A DNA stretch of 64,000 nt. Origin: Deuterostichococcus epilithicus (Eukaryota; Chlorophyta; Trebouxiophyceae; Prasiolales; Stichococcaceae). The notes under the pieces were generated by a model. It made no database searches. It was not told the origin of the DNA and was given only the letters and a program-made list of their open reading frames with translations. This document shows, piece after piece, positions 15,897 to 31,668 of this stretch. Location of the stretch: the NCBI GenBank assembly GCA_033439295.1, contig JAVTLE010000003.1:2108001-2172000 (forward strand), in the 5' to 3' direction. The translations under genes were made by a program, and so were the position numbers. The first letter of the stretch is position 1. Every line of letters begins with the position of its first letter.

Positions 15897-18800
15897 TCAA
15901 AATTCGTCGTGCAGCGATTCGCTGTCCTCCTCGCCCTCGTCAATAACTGCACAACATGAGAGTTCCACTCAAGAAGACGTGGAAGACGTGGAATGATTTC
16001 CATTATTCTCGAAAGAGATAGACGCAGCACACAGCTGCTGCGAGATGGTGAGCACGATATGGGCAATTTGCAGCCCGTTCCTGCACAAGCGGATGCAACC
16101 CCACATTGACAGGGGTTAAGCGCAGGGGCAGTCCCGGCCTGGCCGTGGCGACACACAAATTGACCAAACAAAGGCCAGCGACCTGCGTTTTCAGGATCGT
16201 TCACACTGGCATGTGGGCTACTTCACTAAACAGCGCTGACAGTGCTGCTGCTGCACCTGAGGACCCGTAGAAGACGTAGGGATTGGAGATCATCTCGTTC
16301 AGCGTCAGCATGCCGTCTGCTGAGTTGTCAGCTGCCTCCAGCTGGTGCAGCGCCTGCGGGGCGCACACGGTCATGACGGTCGCTCACAGCAGTTGCGGTG
16401 TGTGTAATTTGGTCGACTGCAATGTCCTGGCTGAGAGGGACCGGTTGCCGCGCGTCTCCAGAGGGGTATGCCCGCCAGCTGCGCCCCCACGAGGCAGCAC
16501 AATCGAAAGCACAGCAATGCGTCTCCAAGGAGGCGGGCTGGGCCGCCAGGAGAGTGTCAGCACTTCCGGTGCCAGGCTGGCGCGCCGTCTGTGAGATCCT
16601 GCCCACCCGCAACTGCGGCGGCCGCCCGCCCCTCTGGGGAGAGTCGCCGGGCCCCGGGCCCGACACCCTTTCGCCGCGCAAATGGCAGAGCGAGCAACTC
16701 TAGAGAGCAACTCTGGAATGGCGCTGGATTCATGCTGCGCCTCTGCGCCGCACGCTAGAGCACGCCAGAAATCTGCAAACCCCCCTGGACCCGTACCTGG
16801 ATGCGCGCATAGTCGTGCTCACGGGGGTGCATCAGGTGGAACACCGACGTCAGCTCCTCCGCCTCCAGGAAGCCGTCCCTGCAGCAAGAGATGGGTTCTG
16901 CTGAGCAACGACGCTGTGCACAAGCAAAGCAAAACATACTGGCTTGGCAAAGGTGCCAAGACAGCTCCGGCTCCTCCGCCACCGGGATGCCATCCATGCG
17001 CCGCGGAAGGAAGACATTGATCAGCTCTGGCTCAGGTACAAGACGCGATCTCACTGCCCCATGGACTTGCCACCAGCTCCTCCGCCTCTCCCGAAAACCG
17101 CCCCTTCGGCAGCAGGTACGTGAGCTGGATTAGTAGATGTGACGCAGATATTTAGAGTTCACGCACTCATCTGTCCAATGGCTTCCAAAGACGGCAGCTC
17201 AACCCTTCAGTACTCTTCAGTTTGACTGCATCCGTAGCGAAAACCTGTCGAAAGGCCTTCACATGCCTTTGAGGAAATGGAAGGATTGACAGCAGTCAGG
17301 CAGCGCACTTATTGGCGTCCAGCAGTGCGAAGCGCGCCCGTGCGGCCGTGCCGCCGTCCTCGGGTGGCTCCACATCGGGGTGCTCCCATTCGTGCAGCGT
17401 GAAAAACATCTGGTCCTTGAACTCCTCGAAGTCCAGCCTGCGCAGCACGCATATCAGATGCTAAATATCTGGGTGCGATCAGTCGGATCAGGACTCTTCG
17501 CAAGGCCTTGGGTTTGAATATGAACTGTCCATTGCAGCCANGACCGCGGCCACTGACCCCCNCGGCGCATGCCCCAGATGTTGGCAGCTCCAGCCTGGCA
17601 TCAGGATGTCGTCCTCCACTGAACACATCGGGGGTGCACATGCAGCTTCGGTGCTGCTGAAACTGATGGTTCTCTAACAATGTAAAGCCATTTCCCGGTT
17701 CTGATGGCGTACTTCCCAGCGCACTCACTTGTTGTCGTGGTTGCGGTCCCGGTCCGCGATGTCCTGCCGCCGCAGGTGCGCATGCAGCGCCGCGTTGTTG
17801 GCGTCCTCGGGGTGGCTGAACGCGAAGTGCTCCTCCGGGCTGAGGCCGCCGCTGTTGTCGGCGTCCGCCAGCCGGAACGTCTCCTGCACGAGGCCCCAGA
17901 GCAAGTAGCACCCTTGTATTCGGCTTGCGCTGACCGTGGTATGGAGCGGCGGCCCTGGCAGGCGGAAACAGGGGCAGGGTGCCTTCTCGAGGCTGCGCGG
18001 CCTGCCCTGCCGCCGCCGCCGCTGCCACCGCCAGCTCGGGCAGTCGAGGTCAGGGCCCCCAACTGTCTGGGGGGCTAGCCGTGCAGCTGCGCACCCTGTT
18101 GTGCCGGATCCACTCGTGCGCGGGGTCCTGCCACACGGGGCTGGCGTCCAGCTCTGCCGCCGTCTCGTTGCCGTGGAAGGAGTCCGGCAGCAGATCCGCC
18201 AGGTACTCTGCCAGAGTCACCTGTTTGTTTCAGCACACGCAGCGCTCCTCGAACTTTTTCAGCTTTCTGGAAACTTGCGCAGGAGGACACTGCCGGGACA
18301 GCACGGGAATGCCTTCCAGAAGCAGGTCCTCTCACGGCAACGCGTGCGCATGAAAACACCTTGCAGCTGTGGCTTGCTGCCACTGTGTGGAGACGTGCCA
18401 AGGGCGCTGAGCTCGCAGAGCGACTAGTCTCTGCCACATGCATGCCACTGCACCAGCTGTGCTGCCATGCTCAGCAGCACAGCGCCAACGACAGCCCCCA
18501 AACTCTGCTGAGCGGCAGCCGGCCCTCATTGTCTTAATATGTGTGCTTCTGACGGGCAGCAGGTGCAAAACGTCGACGCGTCAGGACCTAGAGCCTTGAC
18601 CGCACCTGGCCGTCCTTGTTGGTGTCTGCCCATTCGAACTCCCGTTTTGCGCGCCGCGCGCTGGTATTCCTGCCTGCAGCGCGGCAGGAGCCAATAAGCA
18701 GCCTGCGCCGTCGTGCTGGCGGCGCCGCAGTCGGCTGCACACCCAAGTGGAGAAGCACGGTGCCAAGGCGCCACGCCAGCGGCGCCGCCATGAAAGGTTC

Positions 18801-23257: not shown

Positions 23258-26200
23258 ATGGTGAAAGCCTATCTGCGTTATGAGCACACTGGCAGCTTCG
23301 GCGTCATCGCCGGCGCCGGCGCGCTGGCCTACGATCCCAAAACAAACCTGCTTGCAGCAGCCGCCCTGGAGGATGTCGCCGTCTGGAACGTCAAGCAGGC
23401 CAGTTTGGTGAGCAGCCTCAAACTCACGACATTTCCGCCTGGACATGCGAGGCGATGCCTGCAGGTTCTGTAGTTGCTGTGCCGAACTGCACCTGCACAG
23501 TGGTGAGTCGCTCGTGTGCACCGGCTGCTCCAGCATGCACGGTCCTCCTGTGCTGCGCAGGTGCGGAAGCTCACGGCGGCATCCACCGCAAACGGTCGGG
23601 CTCCAGCAGAGGTCACGCAGCTAGCGGCGTCAGCCGCCACCAATCTGCTGGCCGCCGGCTACTCCGACGGCACGGTGCGGGCACTGCTTCTGGCCTTGCT
23701 GCCGTCCCGATCTCATTCTGACGAATCGGTAACGTGTGGCGACCCTGCAAAACCAACAGCGTGACTGTGTTTGCCGTGGGGACAGCATCGATACAAGCGC
23801 GCAACCACACCGCAGGTGCGGCTGTGGAATGTGGAGACGAACGAGTGCGACGTCACGCTCAGCGGCCACAAGGTGAGGGCGCTCTGCTCGCCTGAGGCAG
23901 AGAAGTTGCTGAAGAGTACGCTGCTCTGCCTGAGTCTCCGCTTGCCCAACATCAGCTTCTGCAGCCTCCATGGGACGCCTTGCTCACCCCCACGCCTGGC
24001 CCTTGCCGCGCAGTCGGCAGTGACGGTGCTGCGGTTCAGCGCCTCGGGCGCGCAGCTGGCATCGGGGTCGCAGGACACCGACGTCATCGTGTGGGACGTT
24101 GTAGCGCAGACCGGCCTCTTCCGCCTCCGCGGCCACCACGGCCAGGTGCGCACTGACGGTGGACCAGGTTCCTGTGTGGTGCAGTCGCTGACCTGCCTTC
24201 TGCTTGCCGCCATGGCGCCCCTTGGGTGCACTGCTCCACGTTCGCCGCACGACGGTGACGGCACGAAACATGACTTGACCACTCCCCTGTTCTGCCGTGC
24301 ACACACGCAAAACGCTAAGGTTTCATCGTGCGCCAGGTGGCAGCTGTCCCATCGACAGGAGCCTCACTCTGAGTTTTCTGGGTTTTGCAGATCACGGGGC
24401 TAGCATGGCTGGAGGCGGGTGGCCGCCTGGTGTCGTGCGCCAAGGACGGCTACGTTAAGGTTTGGGAGCTGTCCACGCAGCACTGCTCCCAGACCGTCGT
24501 CGGCCACCGGTGCGGCACCTTGTCTCGGCGACCCGATCGTGTGCGATGGTGGTCTCGCAATCGGATTGATCCGCTTTCTCGTCAGCTTCTCACCCAGTCA
24601 GCCCCACAAATCTGGCAACTGTGCGCGATGTGCACAACGGTGCATGGAACATGGGTCTGCTGCGGATGATGATACTCGAATCAAACAGTTATCCCTGTCT
24701 GAGAGGGTCGAAAAGACACTCGTGAGGACACACTTCCGAGCTCCAACTGACGCAAGCAGACACCCGACTTTTCTAAGATCTCCTAGACCAATCCTCTATG
24801 ACAGCGAGCCTCTTCCCCGGGAGTCAGCGCTGCACTGAAGTTGTACGACCCTTCGCCAGTCCTAGATATACGAAGCCTTCATGCCACCAGACAGCAACAA
24901 TGCCTCCAGACGTGCAGGGGCGAGGTGTGGGCGCTGGATGTGGACGCTGAGGGGCAGCGCCTCGCCACTGGCTCTGCGGACGCGGACCTGCGGCTGTACA
25001 GCATCCAGAGCCCCGAGGCCACAGGTGCGCGCTCCTGCCCGCTTTTGGAACCTCAGCACCAGATGTGCTACTTTTTACATTTACAAGCCTTGTGTAGGGG
25101 ATGCACGGTGGTTGGCTTCTGCTGCGCTTGCGCAGCGTCTGCGCCGTTGTGTAGCTCAGAAACACAGGGTGAAGGCCTCACTTACAGTGCGCTCGTAACA
25201 CCTCAATGTGTGAACTATAGGTGCTAGCACATCTTATGAGACGCTCAAGCCGCTGGGCGCTGTGCGACGGTCGGCGCCGGAGCGGGCGTCTGGCGTCGCA
25301 TACGGCGGCCCCGGCAGCCGCCTGCTGGCATGCCAGTCTGCCGGGCGGGCGATTGAGCTATTCAGGTGCGCGCCCTTGACGTTGCCGCTGCCGCATATCC
25401 ATCCGGGCAGCACCTGCAGCCTCAAGATGTTGCGACATCAGCAGTAGTTCGCTTAAGGCAAGCTTACTGCATGCAGCACTTCGTGTAAGTCACGTCTGTG
25501 CAGCGAGAGCCTTATCGAAGGGCGCCATACTGCACGCCAGGTCGTCATGCCACCTCACCTGATTGGCGTCCTGCCGTCTGCTCCAGGATGCGGTCGGAAA
25601 CAGAAGCGCGAAAGCACATGAAGCGGCGGCGGAAGCGCAAGAGGGAGAAGGCGGCCAAGGCCAGTGGCGGCGATGCATCAGCGGCAGCAGCGGCGGCGGA
25701 AGCAGATGCGGCAGACGAAGAAGTGCTCACGGCTGCTGACGAGCTCGAACCGCTGCAGGTAGTGTCCCCTTGCGAGGACGCCACTTCTTGTGTGCCAACC
25801 ATGCTAGTGTCTCCTGTCCTCCGCTGAGTGTCAAATGAGCGCGTCACAGTGTTTTTATTATTGTCTCTGCCCAGTGCAAAGCGGCCGATGCCTGCTTTCT
25901 GGACCCATTTCGAAATTCCTGCAATGATGACGCTCATGCACCTTGCAAACGCAGGTAGTGCGCAGCAAGCACAAGATCCGGTCGTTTATGTTTTCGCCGT
26001 CACCACGCCGCGGCCTGCTAGCACAGCTCACCCTGTCCCTGGCCAACAACACCATCGAGGTGTGCAAATAAAATAAATACATGAATAACATGAGAACACC
26101 TTGACGCATCGCATGGTCTGAGCCATCCACGATGTGTGAACACGATGCCTGCTGCCGTCCTCGGGTCCTTCCGCCGGTCCTTCTGTAGTGTGGCTCTCCC

Positions 26201-29200
26201 AACTTCTAGTATCATGGGAATGGTGTGCTGCGGAATCATCCAACTTCTAGTATCATGGGAATGGTGTGCTGCGGATGATGATACTCGAATCAAACAGTTA
26301 TCCCTGTCTGAAGAGTGTCGGAAACGACACTCGTGAGGACACACTTCCGAGCTCCAACTGACGCAACAAGATGCCACCACCACATATTCAAACCCACTCC
26401 TTTGCAAGAGCCGCGGGCCGCCCCTAGGCATGCACAATGCGGCAGTTTTGCGCAGGCAAGAACTTCCAGACTGTCGCCCAGCTGACATGAGATACCTCAA
26501 CCCTTGCAGCTGCTCAGAGAGACGGTCTTCATTCGCGAGCCTCATGTCACTCGTCAACAATCTAGATCCCTGATCCCTCTCGTGCGCCCGCCCAGGTGTG
26601 GGATGTTGTCGAGGAGGCGGCCACCCGCGCGGTTGCGCTGGAGGCCGCCGGCCACCGCTCCGACGTGCGCGCTGTGGCACTGTCGGGCGATGACGCCTCG
26701 CTGCTGTCTGCAAGCAGCGCCGCCGTCAAGGTGTGTGTGATTCTGCAGCCTCGTGTCACCTGTTGCAGCCAGCATTCCTACGCTCTTGGCTGCTTGTGCT
26801 TCTGTGTCCTCACGCGGTCCTCGGAAGCGACGCATCCCTGCTCTCTGCCAGCAGCGCCGCTGTCGAGGTGCATGGCAGCGTCGATGCCAATCTGACATGT
26901 ACTCGTGGTGCGGCGCTTTCGTGCCATTGATTGTGCTAGCACTGTCGAAAGGCGGGCCATCTTGGCAGTGCGGAGGTACACCCGGTCCTGTCGTCCGATT
27001 TTGCCACAGGCACTTGCAGGCGGCCAGGAGTTTCGTCAAGGCCATTCTCGTGCCTCACCCTGCCTCACAGCAGCATGCACTCGCTCGCTCGCTGCTGCTT
27101 TCCGGCAAGAAGCGCTGATGAAACCGCGCCGTCGCCGTGCAGGTGTGGAATCCACGGACAGGCGCGTGCACTGCCACGGTCGAGACGGGGTACGGCCTGT
27201 CGCTGTTGTGGGCGCCTGGCAACCGGCACGCCGTCGTCGGCACGAAGGCAAGCCAGTGCTCAGGCCAGCGCATCACCTTGCCAGATGTCCACCGGTCAAG
27301 CTCGTGCGGCATGCGCCCTCCTGCCAGCCTTGACATGCCTGGTAGCGGACTGCATTGTGTCGTCCACTGTGAGCGCACAGGGCCTTCATGGAGATGAGTG
27401 TGAGGGCCACACACCTTCCACCGATGGCAACTCACTTGGCCTTCTTCTTGCACGGCTGCAGGAGGGGACCCTGGACATCATTGACGTCGGCGCGGCGGCG
27501 CGCACTGAGGAGGTGCCGGCACATGGCGGCCCCGTCTGGTCCCTGGCCGCCCTGCCCGACAGCTCAGGTGCGGCATCCTCCTCTCTTCTCGGGGCGTTGC
27601 ATTGCACCATCGCCCTGCTGTGCATGTGACTGCCAAGTGTGCTGCTGCGTGTGGCCTCTCCCCCCGGCTCTCAAGTCAGGCTGAATCTGAATCTCAATTT
27701 TTGACATCTTGACCGAGCGCACATACCTCCCGTCCGCAGGCTTTGTCAGCGGGTCGGCGGACCACGAGCTCAAGTTCTGGGAGTGGCAGCTGGTGTCAGA
27801 CGGCGCAGGGGCAGACGGGGCTAGGGCCGCCCCCGGCACCCGGCGGCTGACCGTGCGGCACACCCGGACGCTCAAGATGACTGACGACGTGCTGTGCGTC
27901 CGCATCAGCCCCAACGGTGCGTTGCCACTGCAGACATCTCTTGACTCCATAGTCCTGTGCCTTGGGCTGCATGAACGAGCACAGAGTCGGGCCTAATGTA
28001 TGTGCACGATGCCTTGCACATATGATGGCACACAAAGAAAGGCAGCCAAACATCAAGCTCCATAACCGCTGGTCGATGATTCAAACAACTAGATGCAAAA
28101 CATCTGAGCAAACCCTGCTGATAACAACCTTGGAGAAATGAGGCCAGCTGCCACAACTGCCGTGAGCTGTGTGTCCCGGTGTCTCTTGACGCTGCATTCT
28201 GTCTAGATGTTTTGGGTTTAGCCGTCTCAGCTCTGAACTGTTAATCCATGCATCCAACCACGAACTTTACGTCCTTGTCCTGCAGGCAAGCTGCTGGCGG
28301 TCGCGCTGCTAGACTGCACCGTCAAGGTCTTCTTCCTGGACAGCCTCAAGTTCTTCCTGAGCCTGTACGGCCACAAGCTGCCGGTACTTCCAGCTTCCTC
28401 CTCATGCAGACTCTCGTGATCGCAGCCCATGCAGCGACAGGCAGGCTGTGTGCTTTCGACACTTGCCGGGGCAGCCAGACAGCCAGCCGGCCAGTTAGAT
28501 GCTGATTGAGGAAACTAACAAGATGAAACCTCGCAAGCCGCACTTTCCAGCCCTCCGCGCTGCCCCCGATCAGCGCGGCAGGTCCTACATACAGTTGTGC
28601 GGACAGCCGACAGCACGATATACCTATTCCAGGCATGAGCGAAGTGTGATTGCACCGGAAGAAATGCGTGCGACATATCAGCCTATCGAAACCCCATGTC
28701 TCACCCCTTGACCAGGGTTTCATGTCACCTGCCCCCGGCCTGTCACAAATCCTGCAGCAGTGCTGCAGCTTCCCTGAACATGTTGCGGGCCGGCTGAAGG
28801 ACACTCTGGTCTAGGGAGAAGCCTTGCCTATCAAGCAGCCTCGTCCTGATCAACACTGGGTGGCCACGAATGAGGCACGAGTTCCCCAGAAATGCTGACT
28901 GTGCGTCGCCCGCCCCGCCCCAGGTGCTGTCGATGGACATCTCCTCCGACTCCACGCTGCTGGCGAGCGGCTCCGCGGACAAGAACCTCAAGATCTGGGG
29001 CCTGGACTTCGGGGATTGCCACCGCTCGCTCTTTGCGCACGGCGACTCGCTCATGGCTGTCGCCTTCCAGCCCAACACGCACTACGTGTTCACCGCCGGT
29101 GCGCACACAACAAATGAGTTGTAAACAAAGCTCTCCTCCCGCTGCGCGCCGGGTCGCAGTATGTGTTTAATACTTTGAGCGTCTCCACAGCCTGTTCTGG

Positions 29201-31668
29201 CAGCGCTCTGAAGTCTCTCAGGAGCAGTCGCCTCCCTGAGATGCGGCCCCGAGACCCCCTGCAGCCGCAGCATCACCGGCCGTGCAGCGGCTGTCGTTCT
29301 CAGGGCTGCCTCGTTCCTGCAGGCAAGGACCGGACCGTCAAGTACTGGGACGCGGACAAGTTCGAGCAGCTGCTGGAGCTGCAGGGCCACCAGGGCCCGG
29401 TGTGGGGCCTGGCCGTCTCGCACCTGGGCGACCTGGTCGTCTCCTGCGGCGGCGACCGCGCCATCCGCAGGCGCGTGGAACACCCTCCGTCCCGCCGTCT
29501 GCTGTCCCCTCCTGTCTGCCTCGGGCTGAGTCCCCGCTGGTCCGCCACCCTTCTCCTGCTCTGCCCTGGGTCGCAGGTGCGCACGCAGAACTGTGCCTGT
29601 GCCCGCACGCCGCGGCTCCAGCAGCCGACGTTCGGCCTCGCGCTGTTCACCACACCCCTCTGCAGCATCCCCCCGACTTCGTCTGAGGCGCTCGCCTGCG
29701 CTGCGGCCTCCCACGCTGAGCTGCATCTACGATGCTTCAACACAGGTGGGAGCGCACGGAGGAGCCCTTCTTCGTGGAGGAGGAACGGGAGGCGCGCCTG
29801 GAGTCCCTCTTCGAGGCCGACCTCGAGGTGCGGTGCTCCTGCCCCATGGTCTCTACAGGATCCAAGCTGGCAGAAGCCGGGAGGCCTCCGGCTGCCAGGC
29901 GGCCTTCAGCTGCCAGCAAGCCGCTCGAACAGCCCTGCTGCACATGCCGGCACCGTGGCAGGACAGCTGCGAGCAGCCCGGGGCGACTGCGTGCCTCGTC
30001 CAGGCCAGAGCCACCAGGTTTGCTTTTGAACAAGCAGTGTCTTGGACGGCTGCGGCCTGGACGAGGTAGCGTTCAAGGCAGCGTTCGTTCAAAGGAGCAT
30101 CGGCTGGCAGCTCTGACGTCTGGCTTTGCGTCGCACCAAAACCTCTGCCCCTGACCTCACGCCAGCCCGCCGCTGCCGCACACAGGACACAGCGGGGGTG
30201 CGGCGCGATGACAAGCCGGGCCAGGCGGCTGCCGCCGACGCGGCGGACGAGGGCTCTGGCGCGCCGGCGGCGCGGCGCACGGTCGCCAGCCTCAGCGCCA
30301 CCGACGCGGTCGCGGACGCGCTGGAGGCCGCCGACGCGGAGGAGCGGCGCACCGCGGACCATGCCGCCTCGGGTGCGGGCTTCAGCTGTGTTTCGTCTTT
30401 CTGGGGGTTAGAGCTTCGTCCTCTGGTTGTGCTCTCCGTCCTTCAGGGGGTCCTTCAGGGAACTGCGTGGTGTGGGTGATGTCGTGTGGGTTCCTGCATT
30501 TGGCGACTTTGCAGGGCTGTGCAGCAGATGGACATGAGGGTGTGTGTGCCAATGGAACACGCTCTGCGCGGCATGCGACTTCTCCTTTGGACTGTCAAGG
30601 CGCCTTCGCAGCGTGTGTATCGCCGTGTTTTGCCCAAAGCTGTGCCCGCACCTGCTTCACCCTCCTTCACCCTTTCCACATCCGTGGCATTGTCCCTGAT
30701 TGCATTCCACCCCCACTCACAAATAGGCGCCGACGCCAGGGCGCTGGCGCCCAACCCGCTGATGCGCGGCATGAGTGGCGGCGAGTACGTGCGCTCGGCG
30801 GTCGTCAGCGTGCGGCCCGGCGACCTGGAGGCCGCGCTCCTGTGCCTGCCCTTTGCCGAGGCGCTGCGCCTGCTGCCGCGCCTCACCCAGTGGCTCGCCA
30901 CCGGCGCGCAGGTGGAGCGCCGCTCTTAAACCCCTGAATCCCAAAATCACAATGTGGAGGCACCCGAAGTCGACCTGCATGACCTGCATGATGATGAGCC
31001 CCCTGTTCACCAGGTTTCACAGTCGCCCTCCGCTGGCAGGGCGCGCACGCCGTTGACTGCGCTGCACGCTCGTGCTGCGCGCTTGGAAACAGCCGCGGCC
31101 GCCCCCTGAACCAGCAAACCCCGAAGCGGACGGTCCCTGAACCGTCCGAGCCTTGCGATCCTGCGCCTGCTAGGTGGAGCTGGGCTGCCGGGTTGCGGTG
31201 CTGGTGGTGCGCCTGCACCGGCAGCAGCTGCTGGCGACGCCCGCTGCACGGCCACACCTGCTGCAGCTGCACCGCCTTCTGCACCGCCAGGTGCGCCCCC
31301 GGCCCCGCGCACATGCCCTGGTCATGACACGGGGTACATCAGAGTGGCAGGGCACTTCTGAGCAGCCTGGATCACCAGCTGCTGCCGTTGCCTGTCGCAC
31401 GCCTGCCGGCTGGGTCTTGCATGGCATCAGGGCATTGAGGGAACTGTTCTTCTGCCAGCGCCGCAGATGAAATATATATAAATGCTGTGCCTGACCCTGC
31501 GCGTGACTCGCGCGGCAGGTGCGGGGGCTGAAGGACACGCTGGGCTTCAACCTGGCGGCGATGCGCCACCTGGCACGCTCGCACAAGGCTGCCACGGCGG
31601 TCATGGGCGAGGAGGAAGCCGATGTCGTGCGGCCAGTCAAGCGGCTACGCGAGGTCATAGAGGACTAG
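23258..31668 (+). CDS. UTP12: UTP12/DIP2 (WDR3) WD40 protein of the U3 snoRNP / small-subunit processome
   Basis: UTP12 is part of the UTP-B subcomplex that binds the U3 snoRNP and 5' external spacer during 18S rRNA maturation in the nucleolus. The ATG at 23258 begins [19 protein letters not shown], as in the family. WD40 blades follow in separate exons: [19 protein letters not shown] (23818), [20 protein letters not shown] (about 24040), [19 protein letters not shown] (about 24450), [10 protein letters not shown] (about 24980), a basic linker [13 protein letters not shown] (25615), [19 protein letters not shown] (26596), [18 protein letters not shown] (27143), [16 protein letters not shown] (27740), [20 protein letters not shown] (28310), [16 protein letters not shown] (28968) and [19 protein letters not shown] (29326). 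The Utp12 C-terminal domain reads [13 protein letters not shown] (about 30755), then [20 protein letters not shown] (31519) and [10 protein letters not shown] with TAG at 31666-31668. Every major family landmark is present. Two introns contain box C/D snoRNAs. Confidence 0.93.
24656..24760 (+). ncRNA. Intronic box C/D snoRNA, copy 1; predicted guide for 2'-O-methylation of LSU rRNA (yeast snR38-type target)
   Basis: It lies in a UTP12 intron, same strand as the host. Box C is ATGATGA at 24666-24672, D' is CTGA at 24699-24702, C' is GTGAGGA at 24722-24728 (one mismatch to the consensus) and D is CTGA at 24747-24750. The terminal stem pairs TCTGCTGCG (24656-24664) with CGCA-A-GCAGA (24751-24760): nine pairs with one bulged A. 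A hairpin fills the D'-C' interval. The 13 nt directly 5' of D', CAGTTATCCCTGT (24686-24698), are the exact complement of ACAGGGAUAACUG, the conserved peptidyl-transferase-centre segment of 25S/28S rRNA. By the D-plus-five rule the target is the middle G of GGG, which by my alignment to E. coli 2445-2447 is yeast G2815, the snR38 site. The D-box guide has no target I recognise. Confidence 0.88.
26199..26277 (+). repeat. 41-bp tandem duplication directly upstream of snoRNA copy 2
   Basis: A unit beginning ccaacttctagtatcatggg starts at 26199 and again at 26240 (period 41). It ends in the tgtgctgcgga that forms the 5' terminal stem of the snoRNA, so part of the snoRNA 5' end is itself duplicated. 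Confidence 0.9.
26267..26368 (+). ncRNA. Intronic box C/D snoRNA, copy 2; same predicted LSU rRNA target
   Basis: A near-identical second copy sits 1.6 kb downstream in another UTP12 intron. Box C is ATGATGA at 26275-26281, guide CAGTTATCCCTGT at 26295-26307, D' CTGA at 26308-26311, C' GTGAGGA at 26333-26339 and D CTGA at 26358-26361. Between D' and C' a perfect 8-bp hairpin (GAGTGTCG / CGACACTC) closes on a GAAA loop. Copy 1 keeps the same hairpin with one mismatch, as expected if structure is under selection. The terminal stem is shorter here (TGCG with CGCA, then two more pairs after a mismatch). Guide and boxes are unchanged, so copy 2 may still be functional. Confidence 0.85.
26692..26868 (+). 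repeat. UTP12 exon end and its intronic echo
   Basis: Positions 26692-26731 (gacgcctcgctgctgtctgc and on to the gt donor) recur at 26829-26868 with seven or so differences, offset 137 bp. The first copy is the end of the exon coding [13 protein letters not shown]. The second lies in the following intron and keeps the aggt at its end. Confidence 0.8.

Follow-up and report, generated by a model that had tools for sequence, protein, structure and literature searches.

We consider here a window of 64,000 nucleotides from the green alga Deuterostichococcus epilithicus (contig JAVTLE010000003.1 of assembly GCA_033439295.1, positions 2,108,001 to 2,172,000 of the forward strand), by which we mean the whole stretch of DNA that was analysed and from whose first letter all positions below are counted. 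The window contains a gene for the small-subunit processome protein UTP12/WDR3, and two of the introns of this gene each hold an element with the anatomy of a box C/D small nucleolar RNA (snoRNA). We propose that these are two paralogous guide genes of the snR38/snoR38 family, each nested in a UTP12 intron, and give this reading a probability of roughly 0.93.

The exon model of the host was built manually from open frames and splice sites, and its 21 exons join into a reading frame that runs unbroken for 904 residues before the stop codon. Pfam searches recognize in the product the WDR3 propellers PF25172 and PF25173 (E = 2.2e-155 and 1.1e-112) and the Utp12 C-terminal domain PF04003 (E = 5.9e-18), all above their cut-offs. 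Its best sequence match in the PDB is a chain of WD repeat-containing protein 3 (E = 1.5e-190), and the top three PDB names are WD repeat-containing protein 3, Utp12 and U3 small nucleolar RNA-associated protein 12. The PDB alignments continue across the two junctions that matter most here, GHR-GEVW at intron 5 and NNTIE-VWDVV at intron 9; the two elements lie within these introns, both in sense to UTP12 (Table 1). The junction between exons 1 and 2 is the least certain of the model. As a separate observation on the same gene, introns 11 and 16 begin with GC and not GT (GCAAGC at 27248-27253 and GCGCGT at 29471-29476). Vertebrate intronic snoRNAs keep box D at a fixed spacing of about 70-80 nucleotides from the 3' splice site; the corresponding distances here are 167 nucleotides for copy 1 and 234 for copy 2, and a spacing rule of the vertebrate style was dismissed.

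An earlier note on this DNA had described two elements in which boxes C, D', C' and D follow one another in the proper order and spacing, together with a terminal stem and a hairpin between D' and C', and had taken them for box C/D snoRNAs in two introns of a UTP12 gene. Examination of the two loci bears this out: all the boxes, the stem and the hairpin are in place, and the class is upheld by the boxes, the stem, the inner boxes and the match to the Rfam family RF00213 that is taken up below. The identification of the host is likewise confirmed by the complete frame, the WDR3 propellers, the Utp12 domain and the PDB matches, and the placement by the position of the two copies in introns 5 and 9 of the hand-made model. 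In both copies a terminal stem TGCG/CGCA joins box C (RTGATGA) to box D (CTGA); in copy 1 it is lengthened by TCTGC/GCAGA beyond a one-base bulge, and the stem of copy 2 is shorter. The guide CAGTTATCCCTGT lies flush against the 5' side of box D' in both, and box C' (GTGAGGA) is in both cases one base away from the canonical box. The D'-C' hairpin consists of eight uninterrupted base pairs and a four-nucleotide loop in copy 2, and of seven positions including one G-A mismatch in copy 1. Upstream of copy 2 lies an exact tandem duplicate of its 5' flank that ends with the first base of box C; this is an abortive partial duplicate of the start of the copy 2 snoRNA and not itself a snoRNA.

Table 1. 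Positions in the window of the host gene, of the two box C/D elements with their parts, and of further features of the locus.
Feature	Position	Strand	Remarks
Host gene UTP12/WDR3	23258..31668	+	21 exons, 904 residues + stop; hand model, Pfam and PDB matches
Intron 5	24510..24917	+	GT-AG, 408 nt, phase 2; holds copy 1
snoR38 copy 1, box C/D snoRNA gene	24656..24760	+	UTP12 intron 5; boxes and stem, Rfam RF00213
Box C, copy 1	24666..24672	+	ATGATGA
D' guide, copy 1	24686..24698	+	CAGTTATCCCTGT; D+5 nucleotide C24694
Box D', copy 1	24699..24702	+	CTGA
Box C', copy 1	24722..24728	+	GTGAGGA
Box D, copy 1	24747..24750	+	CTGA
Intron 9	26060..26595	+	GT-AG, 536 nt, phase 0; holds copy 2
Exact tandem duplicate of copy 2 5' flank	26199..26234	+	36 nt; other unit 26240-26275; period 41 nt
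snoR38 copy 2	26265..26370	+	UTP12 intron 9; Rfam RF00213 at 26267-26368
Box C, copy 2	26275..26281	+	ATGATGA
D' guide, copy 2	26295..26307	+	CAGTTATCCCTGT; D+5 nucleotide C26303
Box D', copy 2	26308..26311	+	CTGA
Box C', copy 2	26333..26339	+	GTGAGGA
Box D, copy 2	26358..26361	+	CTGA
Candidate SNORD39/U55-like box C/D snoRNA	28068..28148	+	UTP12 intron 13 (27917-28285); guide ACCTTGGAGA

Predicted target in the large-subunit rRNA

The earlier note had further claimed that the 13-nucleotide guide is complementary to a conserved segment of the large-subunit (LSU) ribosomal RNA (rRNA), that the D+5 rule points to the middle G of a GGG, and that this G is the equivalent of yeast G2815, the target of snR38; each of these claims withstood scrutiny. 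The guide forms 13 of 13 pairs with ACAGGGAUAACUG in 8 of 8 eukaryotic ribosomal DNA (rDNA) loci, a count that is true by selection, these loci of other, distant eukaryotes having been picked from records of bacterial metagenome-assembled genomes (MAGs) by this very segment. In both copies the D+5 rule selects the central C of a CCC (C24694 in copy 1 and C26303 in copy 2), whose partner is the middle G of ACAGGGAUAACUG. Six of the eight loci were tested with Rfam, and eukaryotic LSU rRNA was confirmed in all six. The loci are also an observation in their own right, in that eight contigs filed as bacterial MAGs (L005-L012) carry the eukaryotic LSU rRNA segment and represent eukaryotic contamination of bacterial records.

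Published maps place a guided methylation at this point in several eukaryotes. In yeast, snR38 is given as the guide for Gm2815, a site grouped with the peptidyl-transferase centre (excerpt of PMC8307265), and nucleotide 2815 is marked as the snR38 target (excerpt of PMC8527467); under other numberings the same site appears as Gm2812 (excerpt of PMC3511168) or G2811 (PMC5025663). The equivalent sites are human Gm4362 (guided by snR38A/B/C), Arabidopsis Gm2805 (AtsnoR38Y) and Dictyostelium Gm3148 (excerpt of PMC8817022). The G predicted as target of the algal guide corresponds to Gm2815 of yeast, Gm4362 of human and Gm2805 of Arabidopsis.

A second guide, upstream of box D, was scanned on the eight distant eukaryotic rDNA loci and gave no consistent target; the best stretches span 7-11 base pairs, most of them include G-U pairs (free of these, the longest reaches 8), and they fall at differing places. 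It was dismissed as inconsistent across the eight loci, with the proviso that the alga's own rRNA might still hold a target, and we treat each element as a putative snoRNA with a single guide, that at D'. Also set aside was a weak 5.8S-like match (31.5 bits, cut-off 42) on contig C21, which carries a plastid-type rbcL; the PDB entries that match it best are 8q04 (1072 bits) and, from Chlamydomonas, 1gk8 (1069 bits). Together with the intron-rich UTP12, this rbcL points to a green alga. As rbcL lies on the same contig, C21 is probably the plastid genome and the 5.8S-like match probably organellar, and it was not used as rDNA.

Box C/D snoRNAs are bound by fibrillarin, Nop56, Nop58 and Snu13/15.5K, and what is generally known of such small nucleolar ribonucleoproteins (snoRNPs) suggests how the two elements would be transcribed, processed, assembled and put to use. 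Splicing of the UTP12 pre-mRNA would free introns 5 and 9; after debranching, the ends would be trimmed back as far as the terminal stem and the C/D k-turn, leaving two RNAs of about 100 nucleotides. The D' guide would then pair over 13 base pairs with ACAGGGAUAACUG of the 25S rRNA, and the fibrillarin of the snoRNP would methylate the 2'-hydroxyl of the middle G, which faces the fifth base on the 5' side of D'. This guide would be positioned by the C'/D' motif, which the hairpin between D' and C' may close.

Family assignment and chance controls

Running family models on the window, a check that had been proposed with the earlier claims, assigned both elements to RF00213 (snoR38), and in this the expectation stood; the gathering score, which at 45 bits is a curation threshold and not a biological trait, was reached by neither. 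Copy 2 scores 44.1 bits (E = 5.1e-4 window-wide) and copy 1 scores 38.0 bits (E = 0.013 window-wide), each over model positions 1-91 of 91, and they are the top two among the four Rfam matches with E up to 1 in the window. Both copies have the guide ACAGUUAUCCCUGU directly 5' of D', as membership of the family asks, and guide and D' together (ACAGUUAUCCCUGUCUGA) match the RF00213 consensus letter for letter. The shortfall in score is due to the longer D'-C' hairpin, to a seven-base insert before box D in copy 2 and to a misplaced 3' end in copy 1. Taken alone the family match of copy 1 is weak, and it is the near identity to copy 2 that carries its assignment.

A mechanical scan of both strands of the window asked for boxes C and D, for inner D' and C' boxes and for a stem with 4 or more base pairs. 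It recovered precisely the two elements, both on the + strand, and nothing from the - strand; its C' pattern had been relaxed to admit GTGAGGA, a form seen beforehand. The controls were 40 first-order Markov sequences of window length, one strand each, in which C, D and stem only gave a mean of 0.25 hits per sequence. These results bear on the view that neither element is a snoRNA and that both are products of chance or of repeats, which we regard as extremely improbable. Such a view could draw on the gathering score that both copies miss and on the occurrence of the 13-mer guide in the 46.8 Mb assembly, which is near chance: there are two occurrences, both in these copies, and the reversed pattern also occurs once, so that the bare count is unremarkable by itself. 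It is opposed by the full pattern, for which the inner boxes reduced the Markov hits to 0 of 40, and by a family match that spans the whole model with the 13-nucleotide guide intact and flush to D'. A DNA search of the genome with copy 2, moreover, returned only copy 2 itself and copy 1 (96% identity), and the conservation between the two is confined to the functional parts.

Several points weigh against reading the two elements as snR38/snoR38 genes in UTP12 introns. At the gathering score, the Rfam search of the window returns no match, 44.1 and 38.0 bits both being below 45; a genome-wide RF00213 search at E 0.001 is passed by copy 2 and not by copy 1; and the Rfam alignment of copy 1 stops at 24745, before the true box D. 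The intron placement depends on an exon model made by hand from genome sequence alone, and both snoRNAs are known here as DNA only. Lastly, neither two LSU patterns, used as exact matches only, nor the complement of the 13-mer located the alga's 25S rRNA in the assembly, and the complementarity of the guide was therefore checked on the rDNA of other eukaryotes only.

Similarity and origin of the two copies

Comparison of the copies reveals that the segment from C to D' (37 nucleotides) and that from C' to D (29 nucleotides) are identical, and that between box C and box D all differences are confined to the D'-C' interval (19 nucleotides in copy 1 and 21 in copy 2). The likeness of the flanks, on the other hand, is at chance level only. 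The score observed for the 60-nucleotide 5' flanks was reached by 318 of 2000 shuffles and that for their nearest 30 nucleotides by 215 of 2000, and the 60-nucleotide 3' flanks were equalled by 926 of 2000; for the remainders of the introns the figures are 214 of 500 (5') and 157 of 500 (3'). Identical functional parts between unlike flanks fit selection on those parts, or conversion. An intragenic duplication is the probable source of the two copies, whose continued likeness would be owed to conversion or to selection acting on the boxes and guides.

This pattern does not tell tandem duplication from retroposition. That the second copy is a retroposed mature snoRNA, and not a DNA-level duplicate, would agree with a likeness that ends near the snoRNA termini, with flanks no closer than shuffles, and intragenomic snoRNA mobility is on record (excerpt of PMC3511168); we nevertheless consider it unlikely, since neither an A-tail nor a target-site duplication was seen when the sequence was read by eye, and the shared gene and orientation of the two copies are simply explained by tandem duplication.

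Less likely still is that a single copy is active and the other is a decaying duplicate, alike through recent origin or conversion, for the boxes and both guide regions are identical and the changes lie only in the D'-C' interval, a distribution unlike that of neutral decay. Either copy could be cast as the decaying one, copy 1 by its lower score (38.0 bits) and the mismatch in its D'-C' hairpin, copy 2 by its shorter terminal stem and duplicated 5' flank. A precedent for inequality comes from Ostreococcus tauri, where two snoRNAs encoded in consecutive introns of a single gene reach unequal levels (excerpt of PMC7671301). The two snR38/snoR38 guides might be made in "two doses" from one transcript, as the earlier note had it, and given the unequal Ostreococcus pair equal doses from the UTP12 introns are not to be assumed.

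Known relatives and a candidate guide in intron 13

In yeast and human snR38 is intronic. With the snoR38/snR38 family (RF00213; yeast snR38, human snR38A/B/C, Arabidopsis AtsnoR38Y) the UTP12 elements share the order of the boxes, a guide flush with D', a D+5 position at the middle G of GGGAUAAC and the occurrence in multiple copies (A/B/C in human, two here). They differ from the Rfam consensus in the longer D'-C' hairpin of both copies and the seven-base insert before D in copy 2, and from the known members in their host, which here is UTP12. A shallow literature search found no published precedent for UTP12/WDR3 as an snR38 host, and the main text of PMC5122169, on plant snoRNA families, makes no mention of snoR38/snR38. 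The family is included, with marks for plant, human and yeast, in a table of C/D snoRNA targets of the last eukaryotic common ancestor (LECA; excerpt of PMC3511168).

Among green algae, an excerpt of PMC7671301 places 72 of the 131 snoRNAs of O. tauri in introns of protein genes, assigns 33% to ribosome-biogenesis hosts, and describes the O. tauri snoRNAs as single copy save three exceptions; the Chlamydomonas snoRNAs are described there as mostly multi-copy families, mainly clustered. The UTP12 pair resembles what this excerpt gives for O. tauri in having intronic snoRNAs in a ribosome-biogenesis host and in that, as with the consecutive introns of one gene there, more than one intron of the host holds one; it differs in that the same snoRNA occupies both introns, whereas the Ostreococcus pair consists of two different ones. 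Since intronic snoRNAs in ribosome-biogenesis genes are already known in green algae, the UTP12 pair is a new case of a known kind. Nothing in it departs from known snoRNA biology; it is a new example of an old, well-described family and leaves the view of how snoRNAs work unchanged. It adds a clean, intronic and duplicated instance of an ancient guide RNA in a green alga, hosted by a gene with a role of its own in building ribosomes. With two natural copies in the same pre-mRNA that share their guide and differ in their D'-C' hairpin, it would also allow a simple test of the effect of the hairpin and the terminal stem on snoRNA accumulation.

A further element, in intron 13, resembles SNORD39/SNORD55 (RF00157) in keeping the guide ACCUUGGAGA of that family at an equal distance from D. 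It has a terminal stem of 7 base pairs, one of them G-U, and stems of that span and length occur at 56 of 40,000 window positions. It differs from the family in its degenerate boxes (C as TCGATGA and D as ATGA, in place of the canonical forms) and in its score of 24.2 bits, below the gathering score of 35; its E is 0.68 over the whole window and 0.0042 over a search space of 401 bases. The target expected of it is the C that corresponds to human Cm2791. RF00157 belongs to the same clan as Arabidopsis AtU55/AtsnoR15, with the site Cm1850, the pairing of family and site being that of an excerpt of PMC3511168. The odds somewhat favour a third guide snoRNA, of U55/SNORD39 type, and we list it as a candidate without filing it as a member of RF00157. 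It is a long shot that UTP12 might be a dedicated multi-snoRNA host, with large-subunit methylation guides in at least introns 5, 9 and 13, two of them the same guide to the peptidyl-transferase centre with differing D'-C' hairpins. If this were true, the output of a small-subunit processome protein would be linked to the dose and the efficiency of methylation in the large subunit, with the two hairpin variants acting at unequal rates.

A genome-wide RF00157 search at E 0.001 gave no match, and as it also gave none in 14 control genomes, this null says nothing on absence. The match to RF00157 at 18345-18417 (+), with 25.1 bits, is without the family guide and was dismissed as chance. The candidate guide together with its D-like end recurs at one other place in the genome, and the backwards pattern occurs once, on the reverse strand. 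This second ACCTTGGAGANNTGA place (contig C5, L016) was rejected, as inspection by eye found no RTGATGA in the 151 bases before it and Rfam no match up to E 1. The exact target TCTCCAAGG is absent from all eight distant rDNA loci scanned, and the best near-target of the intron-13 guide is TCTCCGAGGT, which lies within LSU sequence at locus L008 and involves a single G-U pair.

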